In this document: piece after piece, positions 4,901 through 33,616 of the stretch
Layout: each line of letters starts with the position of its first letter
How positions within the stretch are numbered: position 1 is the stretch's first letter
Assembly: GCF_005771675.1 (NCBI RefSeq)
Contig: NZ_VAJM01000003.1
Location: 434,001-498,000, forward strand
DNA: 64,000 nt
Source: Hymenobacter jeollabukensis
GTDB lineage: Bacteria; Bacteroidota; Bacteroidia; Cytophagales; Hymenobacteraceae
Direction: 5' to 3'
Position numbers and translations under genes: made by a program
The notes under the pieces: generated by a model
Told to the model about the DNA's origin: nothing
Seen by the model: only the letters and a program-made list of their open reading frames with translations
Databases searched by the model: none

Positions 4901-7900
4901 GCCTCAACAACGTGGGCGGCGCAACGGTGAGCGGCAACATCTCGCGCAATGCGTTGTCGAACAACTCGGATGGTATTGAAATGACGGCTTCGTCGAACAA
5001 CACCATCACCAACAACCAGTTCCTGAACAACGCGGGCTACGGCATCGACTTCATCAGCGGTGTGAGCAATGGCAACACCATTACGGGCAACGTGTTCAGC
5101 GGCAACGGCCAGAACAGCAGCAACGGCCAGACGGCCGGCATCGGCCTGCGCGACGGCAGCTCGAACAACACCATCACGGGCAACACCTTCACGGCCAACG
5201 TGGGCGACGGTATTTCGGCCCGCGACGGGAGCAATAACATCTTCTCGCAGAACAGCTTCTCGGCCAACGGCAACCTGGGTATCGACCTGACCACGGGCGC
5301 CACTTTCGACGGCGACGGCGTGACGCTGAACGACTCGGGCGACGCGGACGCCAACACCGGCCAGGCCAACGGTCTGATCAACTTCCCGGTTATCACCTCG
5401 TCGACCATCCGCAACGGCAACCTGATCGTGCAGGGCTTTGCCCGCCCGGGCGTGACGGTGGAACTGTACGTGGCGGACCCGGATGGCACCGGCTTCGGCG
5501 AAGGCCAGACCTTCTTCAACACCTTCGTGGAAGGCTCGGCGGCGGACACCAACCCGGGCACGGGCACCTACTCGGGCCTGATCAACGGCCGCGACCAGGG
5601 CACCGACAACACCAACCGCTTCACGGTGACCATCGCGCTGTCGTCGCTAACGGCGGCCCAGCGCACGGCCCTGACGGCCGCCGGCGCCCAGCTGACGGCC
5701 CTGGCTACGCTGACCACGAACACCGCTGGCAACTACGGCACGTCGGAATTCTCGGGTGATTCGCCGGTGCTCAACGCCCCGGTAGCCATCAACGACGCGG
5801 GTACCACGACTCCCGGCACGGCCGTCACGCTGACCGTGACGACCAACGACCAGAACAACATCGACCCGGCCACGGTGGCCCTGAACGGCCTGGCGGCCGG
5901 CAGCACCACGGCGGTAAGCGTAACGGGCGGCACCTTCCAGTTCCTGAGCAACGGTCAGGTCCAGTTCACGCCGACGGCGGGTTTCACCGGCATCGCCACG
6001 GTGCCGTACACGGTGAACAACACTTCGGGCATTACGTCGAACACCGCTTTCATCACGGTGAACGTGCGTAACCCCAGCATCGACCTCTCGACCACGATTA
6101 CGTCCCCGGCCAACAACACGGCCATCAACGGCGGGACGGCCCTGACGTACGTGGTGGTGGCTACCAACGGCACCGCCACGGCGGCCAGCACGGTGGTAGA
6201 AACCCTGCAGCTGCCGGCCGGTCTGACGACCAACGGCGGCACCGTGACCATCACGGGCGGGCAGAACTTCGCTTCGGCCAGCTACAACAACGCTACCGGC
6301 CTGGTGACCATTCCGGTGGGCACGCTGGCGGCTAGCGCCTCGCAGACCTACAACGTGGCCGTATCGGCCATGCCCGGCACCGGCCCGGTAACGGCTACGG
6401 CCAACATCAGCGGCGCCGTGACGGAAACCAACACGGCCAACAACACGGTGGCCACGACGGTGACCATCAACCCGCGCTACGACGTGGCCACGACCATCAC
6501 GGGCCCGGCTACGGGCGTGGTGCGCGGCAACGAAATCACCTACACCGTGACGACCAGCAACCTGAGCACCACCGCGGGCTCGGTGTCGCCGGCCCCGAAC
6601 GTGGTGCAGGTGGTGCAGCTGCCGACCGGCCTGACGGGCGTATTTGCCTCGAACGGCGGTACCTACAACTCGGCCGACGGCAAGGTGACCTTCCCGGCCA
6701 TTGGCTCGCTGCCGGTGGGTCAGACGGTGGTCAACAGCATCAGCTTCGCGGCTCCGGCCGCCAACTTCACCGTGCCCTCGGCCACGGTGACGGCCGGCGC
6801 CAGCAGCGACAACGCCGGTGACCTGAACTCCCCCTCGGCGGGGACCAACAACAACACGGCGTACCTGAACAACCTGGCCAGCAACGCCACGGTGGCTACC
6901 GTAGCCCCGAGTGCCTCGCAGGTGAACGTGTACACCAACATCAGCAGCTCGGCCACCAACGTGGCCCCGAATGCCTCGGTGACGCTGACGGTAACGGCCA
7001 ACAATGCCGGCCCGGCCACGGCCACTGCGGTAACGGAAACCCTGCAACTGCCGGCCGGCCTGACGGGCGTGACGGTGAGCAACAGCGGTAACTACAACTC
7101 CACCACCGGCCTAGTGACCTTCACCTCGTTCGGCGACTTGGCTCCGGCCGGCAGCGCCTCGGCCACGGTGACGTTCAACGCCCCGGCCCAAGGCTTCGTG
7201 CTGGCTTCGGCTACGGTGATGACGACGGCTACCGACCTGGTGCCGGCCGATAACCTGGCCCAGATCAAAGTGGAAGTGGCTCCGGTAGCCAACGTGGCTA
7301 CCACGCTGGCGGGCCCGACCACCGTAGTACCCGGTCAGACGGCCACCTACACGGTGACAACCAGCAGCCTCGGTGAGGCGGCGGCCGTTGGCGTGGTGCA
7401 GACGGTAAGCCTGCCGGCCGGCCTGACGGGCGTGACGGTGAGCGGCGGCGGTGGCTACAACAGCACCACCGGCGTGGTAACCTTCACCTTCGCTGGCGCG
7501 ATGAGCAAGGGCACGACGCAAACCAACTCCATCAGCTTCACCGTGCCCTCGGGCGCTACGAACTACTCGGCCGTAGCCAACGTGAACACCACAACGCCGG
7601 AAACGGTGCTGACCAACAACGCGGCCACGGTGGCCACGACGGTGCAGCAGACGGCCGACCTGGTAGAGCGCGTGAGCGGTCCGAGCACGGCTGGTGCCGG
7701 TAGCGCGGTGACGTATACCACGACGACGACCAACAACGGCCCCTCGGTGGCTACTTCGGTGGTGCCCACGCTACAACTGCCCGCCGGTCTTGGCACGGTG
7801 GTGGTGCCGGGCGGTAGCTACAACAACACCAGCGGCTTGGTGACCTTCGGCACGGTATCGGCCCTGGTCAACGGCGCCAGCGTGACCAACACGGCCACGT

Positions 7901-23454: not shown

Positions 23455-24204
23455 ATGCTCCGTTTCAGTTTCGCCACGCTCTGCCTGGCCGCCTGCGCGC
23501 TGGCCGCCCGGGCCCAGGCGCCTGATACCACGACCACCCATCGGCACGAGTTGGGGCTGACGGCCAGCCCGGTGCTGAACCGGTTTTTCACCCGCAACCG
23601 CGCCCTGCCCGTGGGCCTGCTCTACAAGCGGCGCCTGGGCACCGGTGGCCGCGCCTTGCGCCTGGGCGCGCAGGGCAGCTACCAGCGGCAGCAGCGCGAC
23701 GACCCGTACTGGCCCACCGTCAACGACGACTTCGACTACCGCACCACCCAGCTGGAGCTGAGCGCGGGCCTGGAGTGGGTGCGCCCACTCGGTCGGCGCT
23801 GGGCCGTGGCCGCCGGGGCCGATGTGGGCGCCGGCTACCGCCGCGAGTACCGGTACCGGCTCACCTTCAACACGGGCAACACCGGCATCCGTGACCAGAA
23901 CGGCAACCCCGTGCCTGTGTATGAGGAAGAGGAGTTTACTTTCACTTATCGCACAGCAGTGCTGCGTCCTTTCACTGCCTTACGACTCTATGTCACGCCT
24001 TGGCTCTACACCAGCTTCGAGGCAGCCGTAACGGGCTCTTTTACCCGTTTTCGCACAGACGGCAGCGCCAGAAGAGTACGGACAGACACTAACGAAGCGT
24101 ACATACAGACATATAATGGCAGTCCGCTTTACAGAGAGGATGCCTGGAATTTACGCTTGCAACTTCTCTGTCAGGTGACGGTGCATTACTGCTTCGGCAG
24201 ATAA
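23455..24204 (+). CDS. Tandem outer-membrane barrel protein, copy 1
   Basis: A 249-residue protein: signal peptide (MLRFSFATLCLAACALAARAQ), then about 150 residues almost identical to copies 2 and 3 (from APDTTTTHRHELGLTASPVL to GNPVPVYE), then a divergent tail and a conserved end QVTVHYCFGR. Alternating hydrophobic residues, aromatic girdles (WAVAAGADVGAGYRREYRYR) and an aromatic near the C terminus suggest a small outer-membrane barrel of the OmpW/porin-like kind. Function unknown. The signal peptide differs from that of copies 2 and 3, and homology to them begins exactly at the cleavage region. Base composition drops in the divergent tail (about 23911-24170). Confidence 0.85.
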   Translation: MLRFSFATLCLAACALAARAQAPDTTTTHRHELGLTASPVLNRFFTRNRALPVGLLYKRRLGTGGRALRLGAQGSYQRQQRDDPYWPTVNDDFDYRTTQLELSAGLEWVRPLGRRWAVAAGADVGAGYRREYRYRLTFNTGNTGIRDQNGNPVPVYEEEEFTFTYRTAVLRPFTALRLYVTPWLYTSFEAAVTGSFTRFRTDGSARRVRTDTNEAYIQTYNGSPLYREDAWNLRLQLLCQVTVHYCFGR

Positions 24205-24287
24205 CCTAATCCCGTTTTTCGTCTTATGAAACACGTTCACAAGCTCCTGGCGGGCTTGGCGTGGATTCACTACCGCTTTGCTTGTCG
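24205..24287 (+). repeat. Array spacer 1, holding a relic copy of the downstream gene's start
   Basis: An 83-bp spacer identical to the one at 25041-25123. It starts with the same 21 bases that precede the T9SS gene at 25895 and contains ATGAAACACGTTCACAAGCT from 24226, matching that gene's start with few changes before diverging near 24257. The relic frame reads 21 codons (MKHVHKLLAGLAW...) and stops at TGA 24289-24291, overlapping the ATG of copy 2 as ATGA. Confidence 0.85.
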
Positions 24288-25040
24288 ATGAAGTACTACC
24301 GCGCTCTGTTACCGCTGCTGGCGGGGCTTCCTATCACTTCTGCGCAGGCCCAGGCGCCTGATACCACGACCACCCACCGGCACGAGTTGGGGCTGACGGC
24401 CAGCCCGGTGCTGGACCGGTTTTTCACCCGCAACCGCGCCCTTCCCGTGGGCCTGCTCTACAAGCGGCGCCTGGGCACCGGTGGCCGCGCCTTGCGCCTG
24501 GGCGCGCAGGGCAGCTACCAGCGGCAGCAGCGCGACGACCCGTACTGGCCCACCGTCAACGACGACTTCGACTACCGCACCACCCAGCTGGAGCTGAGCG
24601 CGGGCCTGGAGTGGGTGCGCCCACTCGGTCGGCGCTGGGCCGTGGCCGCCGGGGCCGATGTGGGCGCCGGCTACCGCCGCGAGTACCGGTACCGGCTCAC
24701 CTTCAACACGGGCGACACCGGCATCCGCGACCAGAACGGCAACCCCGTCCCCGTCTACCAAGAAGATCGTTCCACCTTTACCTACCGCACGGCGTTGCTG
24801 CGCCCTTTCGCCTCCGTGCGTTTCTATGTTACGCCCTGGCTCTACGCCAGCCTTGAAACCAGTATTACTGGCTCCTACACTCGGCTTGATGATGTGTTTT
24901 ATTCTAAAAGGGTACGTACTGATACCAATGAAGCATACATCCAGACTATCAATGGAAACCCTTTGACCATAGACTATGACTGGCATTTGCGACTACATCT
25001 CATCCGTCAGGTGACGGTGCATTACTGCTTCGGCAGGTAA
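24288..25040 (+). CDS. Tandem outer-membrane barrel protein, copy 2
   Basis: A 250-residue protein. Signal peptide MKYYRALLPLLAGLPITSAQ. Over bases 24288-24758 I find only two differences from copy 3, both silent (24491 and 24740). From about 24759 to 25004 the sequences diverge strongly, then the last 10 codons match again (QVTVHYCFGR). The upstream frame opens at GTG 24261, but the ATG at 24288 begins a proper signal peptide and overlaps the stop of the relic mini-frame (ATGA), which suggests translational coupling. Predicted outer-membrane barrel; ligand and function unknown. Confidence 0.85.
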   Translation: MKYYRALLPLLAGLPITSAQAQAPDTTTTHRHELGLTASPVLDRFFTRNRALPVGLLYKRRLGTGGRALRLGAQGSYQRQQRDDPYWPTVNDDFDYRTTQLELSAGLEWVRPLGRRWAVAAGADVGAGYRREYRYRLTFNTGDTGIRDQNGNPVPVYQEDRSTFTYRTALLRPFASVRFYVTPWLYASLETSITGSYTRLDDVFYSKRVRTDTNEAYIQTINGNPLTIDYDWHLRLHLIRQVTVHYCFGR

Positions 25041-25123
25041 CCTAATCCCGTTTTTCGTCTTATGAAACACGTTCACAAGCTCCTGGCGGGCTTGGCGTGG
25101 ATTCACTACCGCTTTGCTTGTCG
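25041..25123 (+). repeat. Array spacer 2, identical to spacer 1
   Basis: Identical by eye to 24205-24287. The relic frame runs from ATG 25062 to TGA 25125-25127 and overlaps the ATG of copy 3. Two identical spacers indicate that at least one duplication of the whole spacer plus barrel unit (836 bp) was recent or has been homogenised. Confidence 0.85.
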
Positions 25124-25873
25124 ATGAAGTACTACCGCGCTCTGTTACCGCTGCTGGCGGGGCTTCCTATCACTTCTGCGCAGGCCCAGGCGCCTGATAC
25201 CACGACCACCCACCGGCACGAGTTGGGGCTGACGGCCAGCCCGGTGCTGGACCGGTTTTTCACCCGCAACCGCGCCCTTCCCGTGGGCCTGCTCTACAAG
25301 CGGCGCCTGGGCACCGGTGGCCGCGCCCTGCGCCTGGGCGCGCAGGGCAGCTACCAGCGGCAGCAGCGCGACGACCCGTACTGGCCCACCGTCAACGACG
25401 ACTTCGACTACCGCACCACCCAGCTGGAGCTGAGCGCGGGCCTGGAGTGGGTGCGCCCACTCGGTCGGCGCTGGGCCGTGGCCGCCGGGGCCGATGTGGG
25501 CGCCGGCTACCGCCGCGAGTACCGGTACCGGCTCACCTTCAACACGGGCGACACCGGCATCCGCGACCAGAACGGTAACCCCGTCCCCGTCTACGAGGAA
25601 AGCCGCAACACTTTTACTACGCACTCATTGTTCGTGCGTCCGTTTGCTTCTCTACGCTTCTACTATACAGCTTGGCTTTATATCAGCTCCGAAACCAGTA
25701 TTACCGGCTCCTACGCTAAGCTGCGAATCGATACCGAATCAAAGCGGGTCAGACTAGACACCAATGAAGCGTTTGTTCGATCCTACAGTGACCCTCTGAC
25801 AATAGATTATAGCTATGAACTGCGGCTGCAACTCCTCCGTCAGGTGACGGTGCATTACTGCTTCGGCAGATAA
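25124..25873 (+). CDS. Tandem outer-membrane barrel protein, copy 3
   Basis: A 249-residue protein with the same signal peptide and first 157 residues as copy 2. Its tail (bases about 25595-25837; for example RNTFTTHSLFVRPFASLRFY) differs from both other copies, with lower GC and different codon choice, and ends with the shared QVTVHYCFGR. Predicted small outer-membrane barrel, probably surface-exposed through the variable loops. It is followed after 21 bases by the start of the frameshifted T9SS gene, which is the source of the relic sequences in the spacers. Confidence 0.85.
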   Translation: MKYYRALLPLLAGLPITSAQAQAPDTTTTHRHELGLTASPVLDRFFTRNRALPVGLLYKRRLGTGGRALRLGAQGSYQRQQRDDPYWPTVNDDFDYRTTQLELSAGLEWVRPLGRRWAVAAGADVGAGYRREYRYRLTFNTGDTGIRDQNGNPVPVYEESRNTFTTHSLFVRPFASLRFYYTAWLYISSETSITGSYAKLRIDTESKRVRLDTNEAFVRSYSDPLTIDYSYELRLQLLRQVTVHYCFGR

Positions 25874-25894
25874 CCTAATCCCGTTTTTCGTCTT

Positions 25895-27687
25895 ATGAAA
25901 CACGTTTACAAGCTCCTCGGGGGCTTGGCAGCTGCGCTATTGTCGTTGCTGTCCGCTCCCCTCGCCTCAGCCCAGAACTGGCGTACATCAAGGAAGTATG
26001 TCCGGGCGAAACGCGCAGCTACACGCTGGGCAATATCCCGGCGGGCTGGCGCCTGAAAAGCACCCCTGCCAGTATTCAGAATGGCTCATTGACAAATACG
26101 CCGTCCATTTCCTCTAGCCAGGCGGCCACGTTTACCGTCCAATGGAACGATGCGTGGCCCGGCAAGATCACGCCGCAACTGGAAAGCCCCCGTTTTGATA
26201 ATAATGGAAATATAACCGGCTACGATCCTGCCACCGCCCCGGATGCTTTGGTCGAGCTGCTCTCGGTCAAGTCGCTGAGCGGCTGGACGCCGGGGCCCGT
26301 TAGCGGGCCGGCCACCATCGACCCGTGCAGCAGCGGGCAGGCGTACACCTACTCCGTGCCGCAGCGCGAGTTTCCCAGCGCCCCGGGCGACGTCATCACC
26401 ACCTACGTCTGGCGGGTGCCCGCGGGCTGGCAAGTGCAAAACGTGGCGCCCGACGCGCAGGGCGAGTACGTGACCGGCCGCGCCATCACCGTGGTGGTGC
26501 CCGCCGGCGGCGCCAACGGGCAGGTGCAGGCGCGGGCCTACAGCTCCACCTGCAACTTCCAGAACCTGGCCCTGTCGCTCAAAACCTACGTCAGCGACTG
26601 GGTGACGCTCGGCGTCACGCGCACGCCGGCGCTGAGCGTGGCACCGGCCAACCCGAGCCTGACCTGCGGCGATACTCGCCCGCTCACGTTCACGGCCGCG
26701 CTGAGTCCGGCCATCGGCAACCCGGTCATCAACTGGACCTACCCCGCGGGCTGGACGGGACCGGCCACGGGGGCCTCCGTGACGGTGACGCCCAGCGGCA
26801 CGGGCGGCGGCACCGTCACGGCCTCGGCCGTGTATAGCTGCGTGACGCCGGCCGTGAGCGTCTCGCAGGCGGTTTCGGTGGGCTTCAGCCCGCAGGTGGC
26901 CCCGCCCACGCTCAGCGGCCTGCCGCAGCCCGTAGGGGAGGTGCAAGTGCTGTGCCAGCCCACCACCGTGACGGCCAGCGCCCCCGGCGCCACCAGCTAC
27001 GCCTGGACGACCACCGGCTCGCTGCGCGTCAACGGCAGCACCACGGCCACCGGCGCCAGCGTCACGGTGGGCTCGGCCACGGGCGGCGGCAGCGGCACGG
27101 TACAGGTGCAGGCCCTCAACGCCAGCTGCGCCGCCAGCGACCCGCGAGGCTTTCAGGCCAGCTACGGCCCGCCGCAGCCCGAGGAGCTGACCTACAACGA
27201 CCGTGACCTGTGCAATACCGGCATCGTGTTCTTCTCGGTCCGGGCCGCCGACCCCGCCGCCACGTTTCAGTGGTCCATCAGCGGCAGCGGGGCCCGGCTG
27301 CGCTTCGGCTCCACCGGCAGCCAGGTATCCGTTTACATCACCGATCCGCAGGGGACGTTCGACCTGTCGGTGGAAGCGCGTAACAGCTGCAACCCCGCGC
27401 CCGCGCCGGTCAACCCCGTGCAGGTGGGCACCTTCTTCTGCGCTGACTTCGACTACACCTGCGGCATGGGCAGCGCCCGCGCCGCCGCCTACCCCAACCC
27501 CGCCGACGAGTCCCTGACCGTGCGCGGCAACGCCGGGGCCACCCTCTACGACGCCGCCGGCGCACCGGTAGCGCGGCTGGCGCCGGGGCAGCACCAGCTG
27601 CGCACCCGCGGGCTGCCGGAGGGCGCGTATTTCCTGCAGCTGCCCGGCCGCCCGGCCCGGCAGCGGGTGCAGGTACGCCACCGCTAG
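25895..27687 (+). pseudogene. PKD-like T9SS cargo gene with a frameshift after the signal peptide
   Basis: ATG 25895 opens a clear signal peptide (MKHVYKLLGGLAAALLSLL, ending APLASAQ) that stops at about 26055. The body of the protein is in another frame, readable from about 25978 (LAYIKEVCPGETRSYTLGN) to 27687. Joining them needs one extra base, or two fewer, near 25976-25978. The body holds several PKD/Ig-like domains (CGDTRPLTFTAAL, WTYPAGW, YAWTTTGSL) and a type A T9SS sorting domain (AAAYPNPADESLTVRG). The downstream frame alone would start at ATG 26089 and lack a signal, so export would fail. It is either a recent pseudogene, a phase-variable gene without an obvious slippery tract, or a sequencing error. 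Confidence 0.8.
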
Positions 27688-31333: not shown

Positions 31334-33616
31334 ATGCTGCGTCGTTTACCCGCCTTACTGGCCCTGCTGCTGCCGCTGAGCGTGGCCGCCCAAACCAGCC
31401 GCTTCGGCTTTGAGTACCGCCCCCGCCTGGCCACGGTGCTGGTCGCCGGCGACACCCTGCGCCAGGCCTGGGTGGGCGGCTTCGATAGCCCGCAGTTTTC
31501 CAACATCGACCTCAACGGCGACGGGCAGCAGGATCTGTTCGTGTTTGAGCGCATGACGGGCCGCGTGCTCACCTTCCTGAACGCGGGCACGGGCGCCAAC
31601 AAGCGTTGGGTATACGCCCCCGACTACGAAACCATCTTCCCCGCCGACCTGACCAACTGGGTCCTGCTGCGCGACTACGATTGCGACGGCCGCCCCGACC
31701 TCTGGGCCTCGAACAACGGGTCCGACGTGCGCCTGTACCGGAACGTAGCCGGCGCCGGCGGGCGGCCCACCTTGCAGCTCGTTAGCGCGCAGCTGGAGTC
31801 GCAGCAAATCGACGGGCGGCCGTACGTAACCGGCGTCTACGTTAGCCCCTACGACGTGCCGGCCATTCAGGACGTCAACGGCGACGGCAAGCTTGACATC
31901 CTGATGATCAGCCCGCTCGGCGGTTCCACCATTCAGTACTACCAGAACATCAGCACGAGCTGCGGCGGGCTCACCTTCAATTACCGCTCGGCCGAAGCCT
32001 GGGCGGGCCTGCGCTACTGCGGCCTCTCGGGTACCAGCTACGCCACCGCGGGCACCCAGTGCCGCCCCGCCGATACCGGCCGCCCCAACCACACCAGCGG
32101 CGGAGCCCTGCTGCTGCAGGATTTCGACAACGACGGCGACCAGGACCTGCTGATAGGCCGCGACCTAGCCGTGGAGTTGGCCGCCATTCGTAATACCGGC
32201 ACCAATGCCGCCGCCGCGACCAACGCCAGCAGCGTGCTCACCAGCATTCCGAACGGGGCCGGCCCCGTTTCGGTGACCACCTACCCGGCCCCGTACCTCG
32301 TCGACGTGACTTTCGACGGCAAAACGGACTTGCTGGTGGCCTCGGCCCAGGTCGACCATACCGACATGACCAGCCTGCGCAACAACGGCGTGTGGTTCGA
32401 AAACACCGGCACGGCTACCGCTCCGGTGTACGTGCGGCGCACCGGCAGCTTCCTGCAAAGCCAGATGCTTGATCAAAGCGAGGCCGCGGCCGCGGCTTTC
32501 GGCGACATCGACGGCGACGGCAAGGTAGACATGCTGGTGGCTACCGGCATGGACCAGTACGGAACGCCCTTTTCCAGCCCCGGCTACCGCTCCCAGCTCG
32601 CCTACTACCGCAACGTAGGCACGGGCGCGCAGCCGGTGTATAGCCTCGTAACCAGTGACTACCTGGGCCTTTCGGCGCGCAGCTTTGGCAACATGCGCCC
32701 GGTGCTGGCCGATCTGAACCACGACGGCGCCCTGGATTTGGCCTTCGGCAGCGCTTACAACGGGTCGTCGTTCATTTTTTACTACCTGAACACGGCCGCC
32801 GCCGGGCAGGCGGTAAGCTTTAATACCGCGCAGTTCAACTATCTGGACAGCATCGGCAACGGCGCGCTGGACGCGCCCTGCTTCACCGACGTGGACGGCG
32901 ACGGGTACCTCGACCTGCTCCTGGGCACTGAGGCCGGCACCAACAGCGGCTCGCTCCGCTATTACCGCCGCAACCCCACCCAACCCCTGGCCACGGGCTT
33001 CACGTTGGTCAGCAACGACTACGGCGCCATTCGCCTGGGCAACGGTGCCAAACCCCAGCGCCTGGCTCCCGCCGTGGCCGATGTGGACGGCGACGGCACG
33101 CCTGACCTGATGACCGTCGACGGTACCGGCACGATTCACCTGTACGCCAACTACCGCGCCCAGTCCGGTGTGCTCTTTGACCGGACCGATCTGTTCCTAA
33201 ACACCCTGAACGCGCAGTACGAAACCTCGCGCCTGGGCCGCGGTACCAGTGGCCGCTACCACCTGGCCCTGGCCGACCTCAACGCCGACGGCCGGCCCGA
33301 GCTGGTGGCGGGCACCGAAACCGGCGGGCTGCTGCTCTTCGCCCCCCGCAACACCGTGACCAGCGCCCGCACCCGGGCGGCCGAGGCCCTGCCGCTGCAG
33401 GTGTACCCCAACCCGGCCCAGGACGTGGTGACCGTGGAAACGCCCACCGCCACCCGCGTAGTGCTGCGCGACCTGCTGGGCCGCGTGATGCAGCAGGCCG
33501 ATGCCGCCCAGCGCCAGCACCAGCTGAACGTGCGCACCCTGCCCGCCGGCGTGTACCTGCTCGAAGCCACCGACGCCAACGGCCGCCGCGGCGTGCAGCG
33601 CCTTACGGTGAAATAG
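31334..33616 (+). CDS. FG-GAP/VCBS-repeat T9SS-secreted protein
   Basis: A 760-residue protein with a signal peptide (MLRRLPALLALLLPLSVAAQ), many FG-GAP-type repeats each with a calcium-binding loop of the DxNGDGxxD kind (DLNGDGQQDLF, DVNGDGKLDIL, DGDGKVDMLV, DVDGDGYLDLL, DVDGDGTPDLM), and a type A T9SS sorting domain (LQVYPNPAQDVVTVE ... GVYLLEATD). The repeats should fold into a beta-propeller of the integrin-alpha type. Predicted surface-attached or released protein; ligand unknown. Divergent from murF, with about 120 bases between them. Confidence 0.92.
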   Translation: MLRRLPALLALLLPLSVAAQTSRFGFEYRPRLATVLVAGDTLRQAWVGGFDSPQFSNIDLNGDGQQDLFVFERMTGRVLTFLNAGTGANKRWVYAPDYETIFPADLTNWVLLRDYDCDGRPDLWASNNGSDVRLYRNVAGAGGRPTLQLVSAQLESQQIDGRPYVTGVYVSPYDVPAIQDVNGDGKLDILMISPLGGSTIQYYQNISTSCGGLTFNYRSAEAWAGLRYCGLSGTSYATAGTQCRPADTGRPNHTSGGALLLQDFDNDGDQDLLIGRDLAVELAAIRNTGTNAAAATNASSVLTSIPNGAGPVSVTTYPAPYLVDVTFDGKTDLLVASAQVDHTDMTSLRNNGVWFENTGTATAPVYVRRTGSFLQSQMLDQSEAAAAAFGDIDGDGKVDMLVATGMDQYGTPFSSPGYRSQLAYYRNVGTGAQPVYSLVTSDYLGLSARSFGNMRPVLADLNHDGALDLAFGSAYNGSSFIFYYLNTAAAGQAVSFNTAQFNYLDSIGNGALDAPCFTDVDGDGYLDLLLGTEAGTNSGSLRYYRRNPTQPLATGFTLVSNDYGAIRLGNGAKPQRLAPAVADVDGDGTPDLMTVDGTGTIHLYANYRAQSGVLFDRTDLFLNTLNAQYETSRLGRGTSGRYHLALADLNADGRPELVAGTETGGLLLFAPRNTVTSARTRAAEALPLQVYPNPAQDVVTVETPTATRVVLRDLLGRVMQQADAAQRQHQLNVRTLPAGVYLLEATDANGRRGVQRLTVK

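Follow-up and report, generated by a model that had tools for sequence, protein, structure and literature searches.

The outer-membrane paralogues babA, babB and babC of Helicobacter pylori have homologous N- and C-terminal regions with a variable middle, and 5' gene conversion about 60-240 bp from the start gives rise to chimeras (PMC4552749). In Porphyromonas gingivalis, the alleles of RagAB are distributed independently of strain phylogeny (PMC5266723). In the agrBDC system of Staphylococcus a hypervariable stretch extends over parts of adjacent genes, the products of which must match (PMC12312760), and comQXP of Bacillus shows high polymorphism (PMC4408185).

Here, an array of three genes for predicted outer-membrane barrels (c1, c2 and c3) and the following gene c0 are described. 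The array probably represents a two-gene surface module that recombines in Hymenobacter and its close relatives; gene 1 would encode the barrel and gene 2 (c0) a protein that is secreted by the type IX system and built as a string of Ig/PKD-like domains. Like the Bab genes, the c1-c3 family consists of outer-membrane paralogues shaped by gene conversion; however, the Bab genes occupy separate loci and encode other proteins, and PMC4552749 describes neither a secreted partner nor an exchange unit that enters the next gene. RagAB likewise joins an outer-membrane protein of Bacteroidota to a surface partner, but this pair, of which allelic types exist, is a TonB-dependent transporter with a lipoprotein, both from unrelated families. 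The likeness to agr and com lies in a variable block that spans parts of adjacent genes. In comQXP this stretch covers parts of comQ and comP. Both are quorum-sensing peptide systems of unrelated proteins with demonstrated specificity, whereas a pairing of barrel and c0 is suggested by sequence comparison; membership of this class was rejected, as the locus has a barrel and an Ig/PKD-like T9SS protein instead of a peptide signal, a processing enzyme and a histidine kinase. By kind, the family is one of surface proteins shaped by gene conversion, like Bab, and by architecture it is agr/com-like, but it is a member of neither. A description of a barrel-c0 module in Hymenobacter was not found in the open-access literature, which is weak evidence of absence.

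The window, i.e., the whole stretch of DNA that was analyzed, comprises 64,000 nt of Hymenobacter jeollabukensis (GCF_005771675.1, contig NZ_VAJM01000003.1, positions 434,001-498,000, forward strand). Its features are the following.

23455-24204, plus strand: c1, gene for a predicted 8-strand outer-membrane barrel, with a signal peptide distinct from that of c2 and c3
24226-24261, plus strand: remnant of the c0 start in the c1-c2 spacer, with a second copy at 25062-25097; trace of the duplication unit
24288-25040, plus strand: c2, second barrel gene
24288-24761, plus strand: homogenised head of c2; partners are c3 25124-25597 and the mature head of c1, ~23516-23918
24762-25008, plus strand: divergent tail of c2, low in GC3; partners are c3 ~25598-25841 and c1 ~23919-24172
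25009-25040, plus strand: conserved last strand of c2, also at c1 24173-24204 and c3 25842-25873; near-identical spacers follow
25124-25873, plus strand: c3, third barrel gene, immediately 5' of c0; AlphaFold2 model with pLDDT 82
25598-26892, plus strand: putative exchangeable cassette, comprising the c3 tail and the N-half of c0
25895-27687, plus strand: c0, PKD/Ig-like domains and a T9SS C-terminal sorting domain, about 20 bp past c3
26893-26906, plus strand: putative 3' cassette boundary, the QVAxP linker CAGGTNGCYNNSCC between Ig-like domains 3 and 4 of c0
26893-27687, plus strand: C-half of c0, 73% identical to the C-half at the same site in the related genome G005 (N-halves 26%)

An earlier note on this DNA had reported that all three barrel genes share nearly identical first 150-157 residues. 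This applies in full to c2 and c3, but for c1 only to the mature part. The first 471 bases of c2 and c3 differ at two positions (24495 and 24743), both of them silent as had been stated for 24288-24758. From 24762 onwards the two genes diverge strongly, with differences at 98 of 276 sites, until the match is restored in the final ~11 codons and in the spacer of 83 bases. The break between head and tail had a z of 13.6, and none of 2000 permutations reached such strength. The mature head of c1 (codons ~20-155) is 97-100% identical to those of c2 and c3 at the nucleotide level and the signal peptide 33%, i.e., c1 enters the near-identical block only past its signal peptide. The three tails share 47-72% nucleotide identity among themselves. 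Beyond c1, c2 and c3, no members of the barrel family were found in the source genome, and the nearest relative of the c1 tail is a single-copy gene of the related genome G007.

The heads of c1-c3 have a pS of 0.01-0.04 and the tails of 0.76-0.90, and the pN of the tails (0.23-0.35) is well below their pS. Since silent sites are near-identical in the heads and saturated in the tails, the heads are recent and shared, and purifying selection acts on the tails, which are old. The tails of c1-c3 are thus variants of long standing rather than freshly diversified ones. The break tests and the contrast in pS bear out the view of the earlier note that simple divergence after duplication is insufficient. 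Both spacers of the array contain a 36-base copy of the c0 start, recognized by direct reading and as a repeat family, and the repeated unit of 836 bp consists of a barrel gene and the first bases of c0. Because of this composition, the unit records how the array has grown: tandem copying of the barrel gene with the start of c0 would have produced the three copies, and their heads would have been homogenised later.

About 30 related bacteria were compared, with one genome per species. Of 204 Hymenobacteraceae genomes, 51 contain the barrel family, which is also thinly scattered through the order. The named hosts are Hymenobacter species, which were recovered by a related-locus search with an alignment; a query with a single protein matched nothing. 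Paralogues of at least eight other genomes (G053, G005, G037, G021, G040, G116, G060 and G046) show the same break between head and tail: within a genome, their best match is confined to about the first 60-120 codons, past which similarity drops sharply. Near-identical ends around a differing interior block, with identical silent sites in the shared part, are thus found in paralogues. In the strongest cases, which are the window genome G000, G053a, G005 and the first pair of G037, head DNA over codons 30-70 is 96-100% identical within a genome, compared with a mean of 70% and a 95th percentile of 82% between genomes.

Tree discordance was apparent in G037 and G060, two species (H. cyanobacteriorum and a second one) with two comparable copies each. 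Their heads group by species, and the AU test rejects cross-species pairing (p 0.002 and 0.005); the remainder of the gene groups across species, with pairing of the two G037 copies rejected (p 4e-5). As heads pair within and tails across species and the opposite groupings are rejected, the heads of old paralogues have been overwritten, which demonstrates head conversion between them; the shared and the variable parts have conflicting phylogenies. Between the window and G007 alone, the tree topologies show no significant conflict and differ only in branch lengths, therefore the case rests on these branch lengths, on G037/G060 and on other sites. For this pair, pS is 0.67-0.84 in the tails, 0.33-0.52 in flanking genes and 0.27-0.29 in the heads, just under the range of the flanks. 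Gene conversion or cassette exchange, as proposed in the earlier note, is therefore largely right in view of the break tests, the pS contrast and the discordance in G037/G060.

Tandem duplication with neutral or relaxed divergence of the tails, in which selection holds the heads constant without any recombination, would agree with the head motif being more conserved throughout the family than any other part of the protein. It does not agree with the discordant trees, nor with a head identity within genomes far above the level between species, and it is refuted by the silent sites, which within one and the same gene hardly differ in the head but are saturated in the tail. This explanation is regarded as highly improbable. 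The pattern of uniform heads and old tails is instead attributed to recombination, for which the conserved barrel head, i.e., the motif and its neighbouring codons, may provide the homology between paralogues and between strains. Conversion seeded in the head would keep the heads of each genome uniform, and the tails would persist as deeply diverged types.

A sharply bounded variable block near the C-terminus between conserved sequences is also known from target genes of diversity-generating retroelements, which likewise vary the C-terminal part of a surface protein. Targeted diversification of the tails after a recent triplication, by such an element or another form of hypermutation, is given even less credence, as substitutions peculiar to either c2 or c3 comprise every type, the dN of the tails is far under their dS and tail types are common to several species. 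The only reverse transcriptase domain of the genome (RVT_1) is located on another contig. A retroelement was thus ruled out, as here neither a linked reverse transcriptase nor adenine-specific changes nor a second copy of the tail as template repeat is present.

The identification of the gene product as an outer-membrane barrel, already made in the earlier note, agrees with the structure prediction. The AlphaFold2 model (27-sequence alignment, pLDDT 82) is an 8-strand barrel that is matched by Foldseek to CarO, OmpW, OmpX and OmpA, and the predicted protein has eight antiparallel strands, a signal peptide and a C-terminal strand ending near an aromatic residue (conserved F247). Gene 1 is therefore predicted to encode an 8-strand outer-membrane barrel of ~245 residues. 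OMP_b-brl_2 (PF13568) scored 16.7-19 bits, below its gathering cut-off of 27, and is a hint only. The predicted fold is like that of the small barrels above and of PF13568; however, in comparison with PF13568-type barrels the motif HxLGLTASPxLDxFFxxNRxLPxGLLYKR was seen here only in the c1-c3 family, where residues 30-70 are the most conserved stretch. The termini of such barrels are generally periplasmic. With this orientation the predicted outer loops are L1 (39-53), L2 (82-92), L3 (141-155) and L4 (211-225). Loops L1, L2 and L3 are identical in c2 and c3, which differ in L4, strands S6-S8 and the short S6-S7 turn; c1 differs from both by one residue in L1 and one in L3. The proposal that a surface-exposed part is being diversified thus finds little support, as three of the four predicted outer loops are identical between c2 and c3 and the pN of the tails is far below their pS; no sign of positive selection on the tails was observed (pN 0.23-0.35, pS 0.76-0.90).

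The variable segment does not end with the barrel gene. Its placement in the earlier note was correct within the barrel genes, but its continuation into c0 had been missed. In Mantel tests on pairwise identities at 21 loci, or 18 once near-duplicates were removed, the barrel tail correlated with the N-half of c0 (r 0.75, p 0.001 and r 0.74, p 0.0003, respectively) and not with its own head (r -0.02 and -0.04). The N-half and C-half of c0 gave an r of 0.16, which decreased to 0.09 without near-duplicates. Within tail types, the correlation of tail and c0 N-half was retained (r 0.60, p 0.002) and the other correlations vanished. This shows that the tail is uncoupled from the head and the c0 N-half from the C-half, and that the tail is coupled with the c0 N-half.

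The same was observed at orthologous sites, where other tails occupy the position in related species. Site C was compared in six species of Hymenobacter. DNA identity there is mostly 75-92% for the flanks and 72-88% for the heads, but in most pairs the DNA alignment breaks off at barrel codon ~80 and is not regained until the middle or the far end of c0; beyond this block, similarity returns at up to 91%. At Site A, G005, which judged by flanking genes is nearer to the window than G007, differs from the window in tail type and in the N-half of c0, but its c0 C-half is 73% identical. Alike C-halves with unlike N-halves of c0 were found in G105/G020a (89 versus 21%), G000/G005 (73 versus 26%) and G025/G060 (86 versus 41%), and in all three comparisons high similarity starts again at one shared point, the QVAxP linker (window 26893); in G025/G060 a weaker similarity sets in ahead of this point. 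Thus, at orthologous sites the barrel tail and the c0 N-half are replaced and the head, the c0 C-half and the flanks are conserved, i.e., a hypervariable block with conserved ends spans the gene boundary. G076 and G105 have c0 N-halves with 78% DNA identity but strongly different barrel tails, which indicates that tail and c0 N-half are not always swapped as one block.

On its 5' side, the exchanged block starts anywhere from codon 58 to codon 157, as expected of homologous recombination with variable tract ends and not of site-specific recombination. Cassette switching driven by a site-specific recombinase was also rejected because no spare or silent tails exist elsewhere in the source genome, and the linked recombinase that the earlier note had suggested looking for was not found among the flanking genes scanned.

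The cassette also differs in base composition. The median GC3 is 0.88 in the head, 0.53 in the tail, 0.51 in the first 70 codons of c0 and 0.83 in its C-half, and in 21 of 21 loci the head exceeds the tail and the c0 N-half is below the C-half. Instead of import, GC-biased gene conversion could have produced a high-GC head and a low-GC tail, and indeed the most converted segment, the head, has a GC3 of 0.7-1.0 and the least converted one, the tail, of 0.2-0.8. However, most neighbouring genes in the window have a GC3 of about 0.9 throughout; the head is not much above this value and the tail is clearly below, so that it is the low-GC3 cassette that stands out, rather than the head. In addition, single-copy loci have the same gradient. 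The composition favours imported cassettes, and GC-biased conversion is considered quite unlikely as the cause.

In a profile search, c0 was found to follow most arrays. An initial restriction of c0 to YCFG-type tails was overturned by this wider search, as c0 occurs after most tail types. Its product is modelled as a chain of about five Ig-like domains and the sorting domain. In the window, the signal peptide (ATG at 25895) and the mature domains of c0 are in different frames, thus this copy is either inactive or affected by an assembly error. In nine other genomes c0 contains in-frame TAA or TAG codons (L103, L049, L040, L092, L102, L099, L101, L047 and L095). Recoding was ruled out, as both codons occur and in differing sequence contexts, and the unrelated positions of the stops indicate repeated independent loss of the secreted partner. 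The middle of c0 is lost in G037. Altogether c0 is broken in at least 11 genomes including the window, and it is absent next to the single barrel gene of G007; therefore, the barrel-c0 pair is not indispensable. Such frequent loss fits a dispensable surface module or one with fast turnover.

Why tail and c0 N-half travel together can be answered in two ways. Homogenised heads could be a by-product of the tandem array, and the correlation of tail and c0 N-half could reflect linkage in imported DNA, with neither pairing nor adaptive exchange. Physical linkage alone could explain the joint exchange, as the two segments are adjacent (about 20 bp between the genes in the window), c0 is often broken and the low-GC cassettes look imported. 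Against this, three comparisons regain similarity at the same domain boundary and not at random points, the tails are under purifying selection, and no such coupling exists for the head and the c0 C-half, which lie equally close. This account is considered somewhat unlikely.

In the alternative reading, the barrel tail and the N-terminal domains of c0 are exchanged jointly, probably because they would bind each other as a matched pair. Recombination with one anchor in the head and the other at the boundary of Ig-like domains 3 and 4 of c0, or past it, would replace the interior, and barrel tail and c0 N-half would travel jointly as observed. It is well conceivable, though by no means assured, that this is an undescribed module of the Hymenobacteraceae in which the second half of the barrel and the first half of c0 together make up a matched specificity cassette that can be exchanged as a unit, the head and the c0 C-half serving as generic recombination ends. 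Head and tail of a single protein can, as seen here, differ in their history, that of the tail being shared with the neighbouring gene. A matched pair predicts that an outer-membrane barrel pairs specifically with a substrate of type IX secretion; natural variants of the two are plentiful in the family. A uniform head with a variable tail could otherwise be read as antigenic variation; here an explanation is proposed for it in environmental bacteria.

Some further observations were made at these loci. The near relatives G109 and G025 (L101 7479-9473 and L104 4670-6664) share their barrel tails almost wholly, but a dense cluster of changes in c0 (~alignment positions 1040-1364) points to a further exchange inside c0. 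In H. elongatus (G040; L045 6848-12185) barrel and c0 copies alternate, and two barrel genes are 100% identical over their full length, corresponding to a very recent duplication of the unit. In Hymenobacter sp. HSC-4F20 (G106; L057 6532-6687) ~52 codons of a barrel head are left as a deletion remnant, at a site that holds arrays in other species. In the window, a second type IX-secreted surface protein with FG-GAP repeats and a sorting domain is encoded near the array (31334-33616), and it gave a weak score with the c0 profile. Finally, H. rubripertinctus and H. piscis have tetranucleotide repeats, GCTT x12 (L056 6128-6175) and TGCT x8 (L055 ~6180-6212), ~220-240 bp upstream of the barrel gene. 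Only eight such repeats occur in the 635 kb examined, and a function as expression switch is possible.
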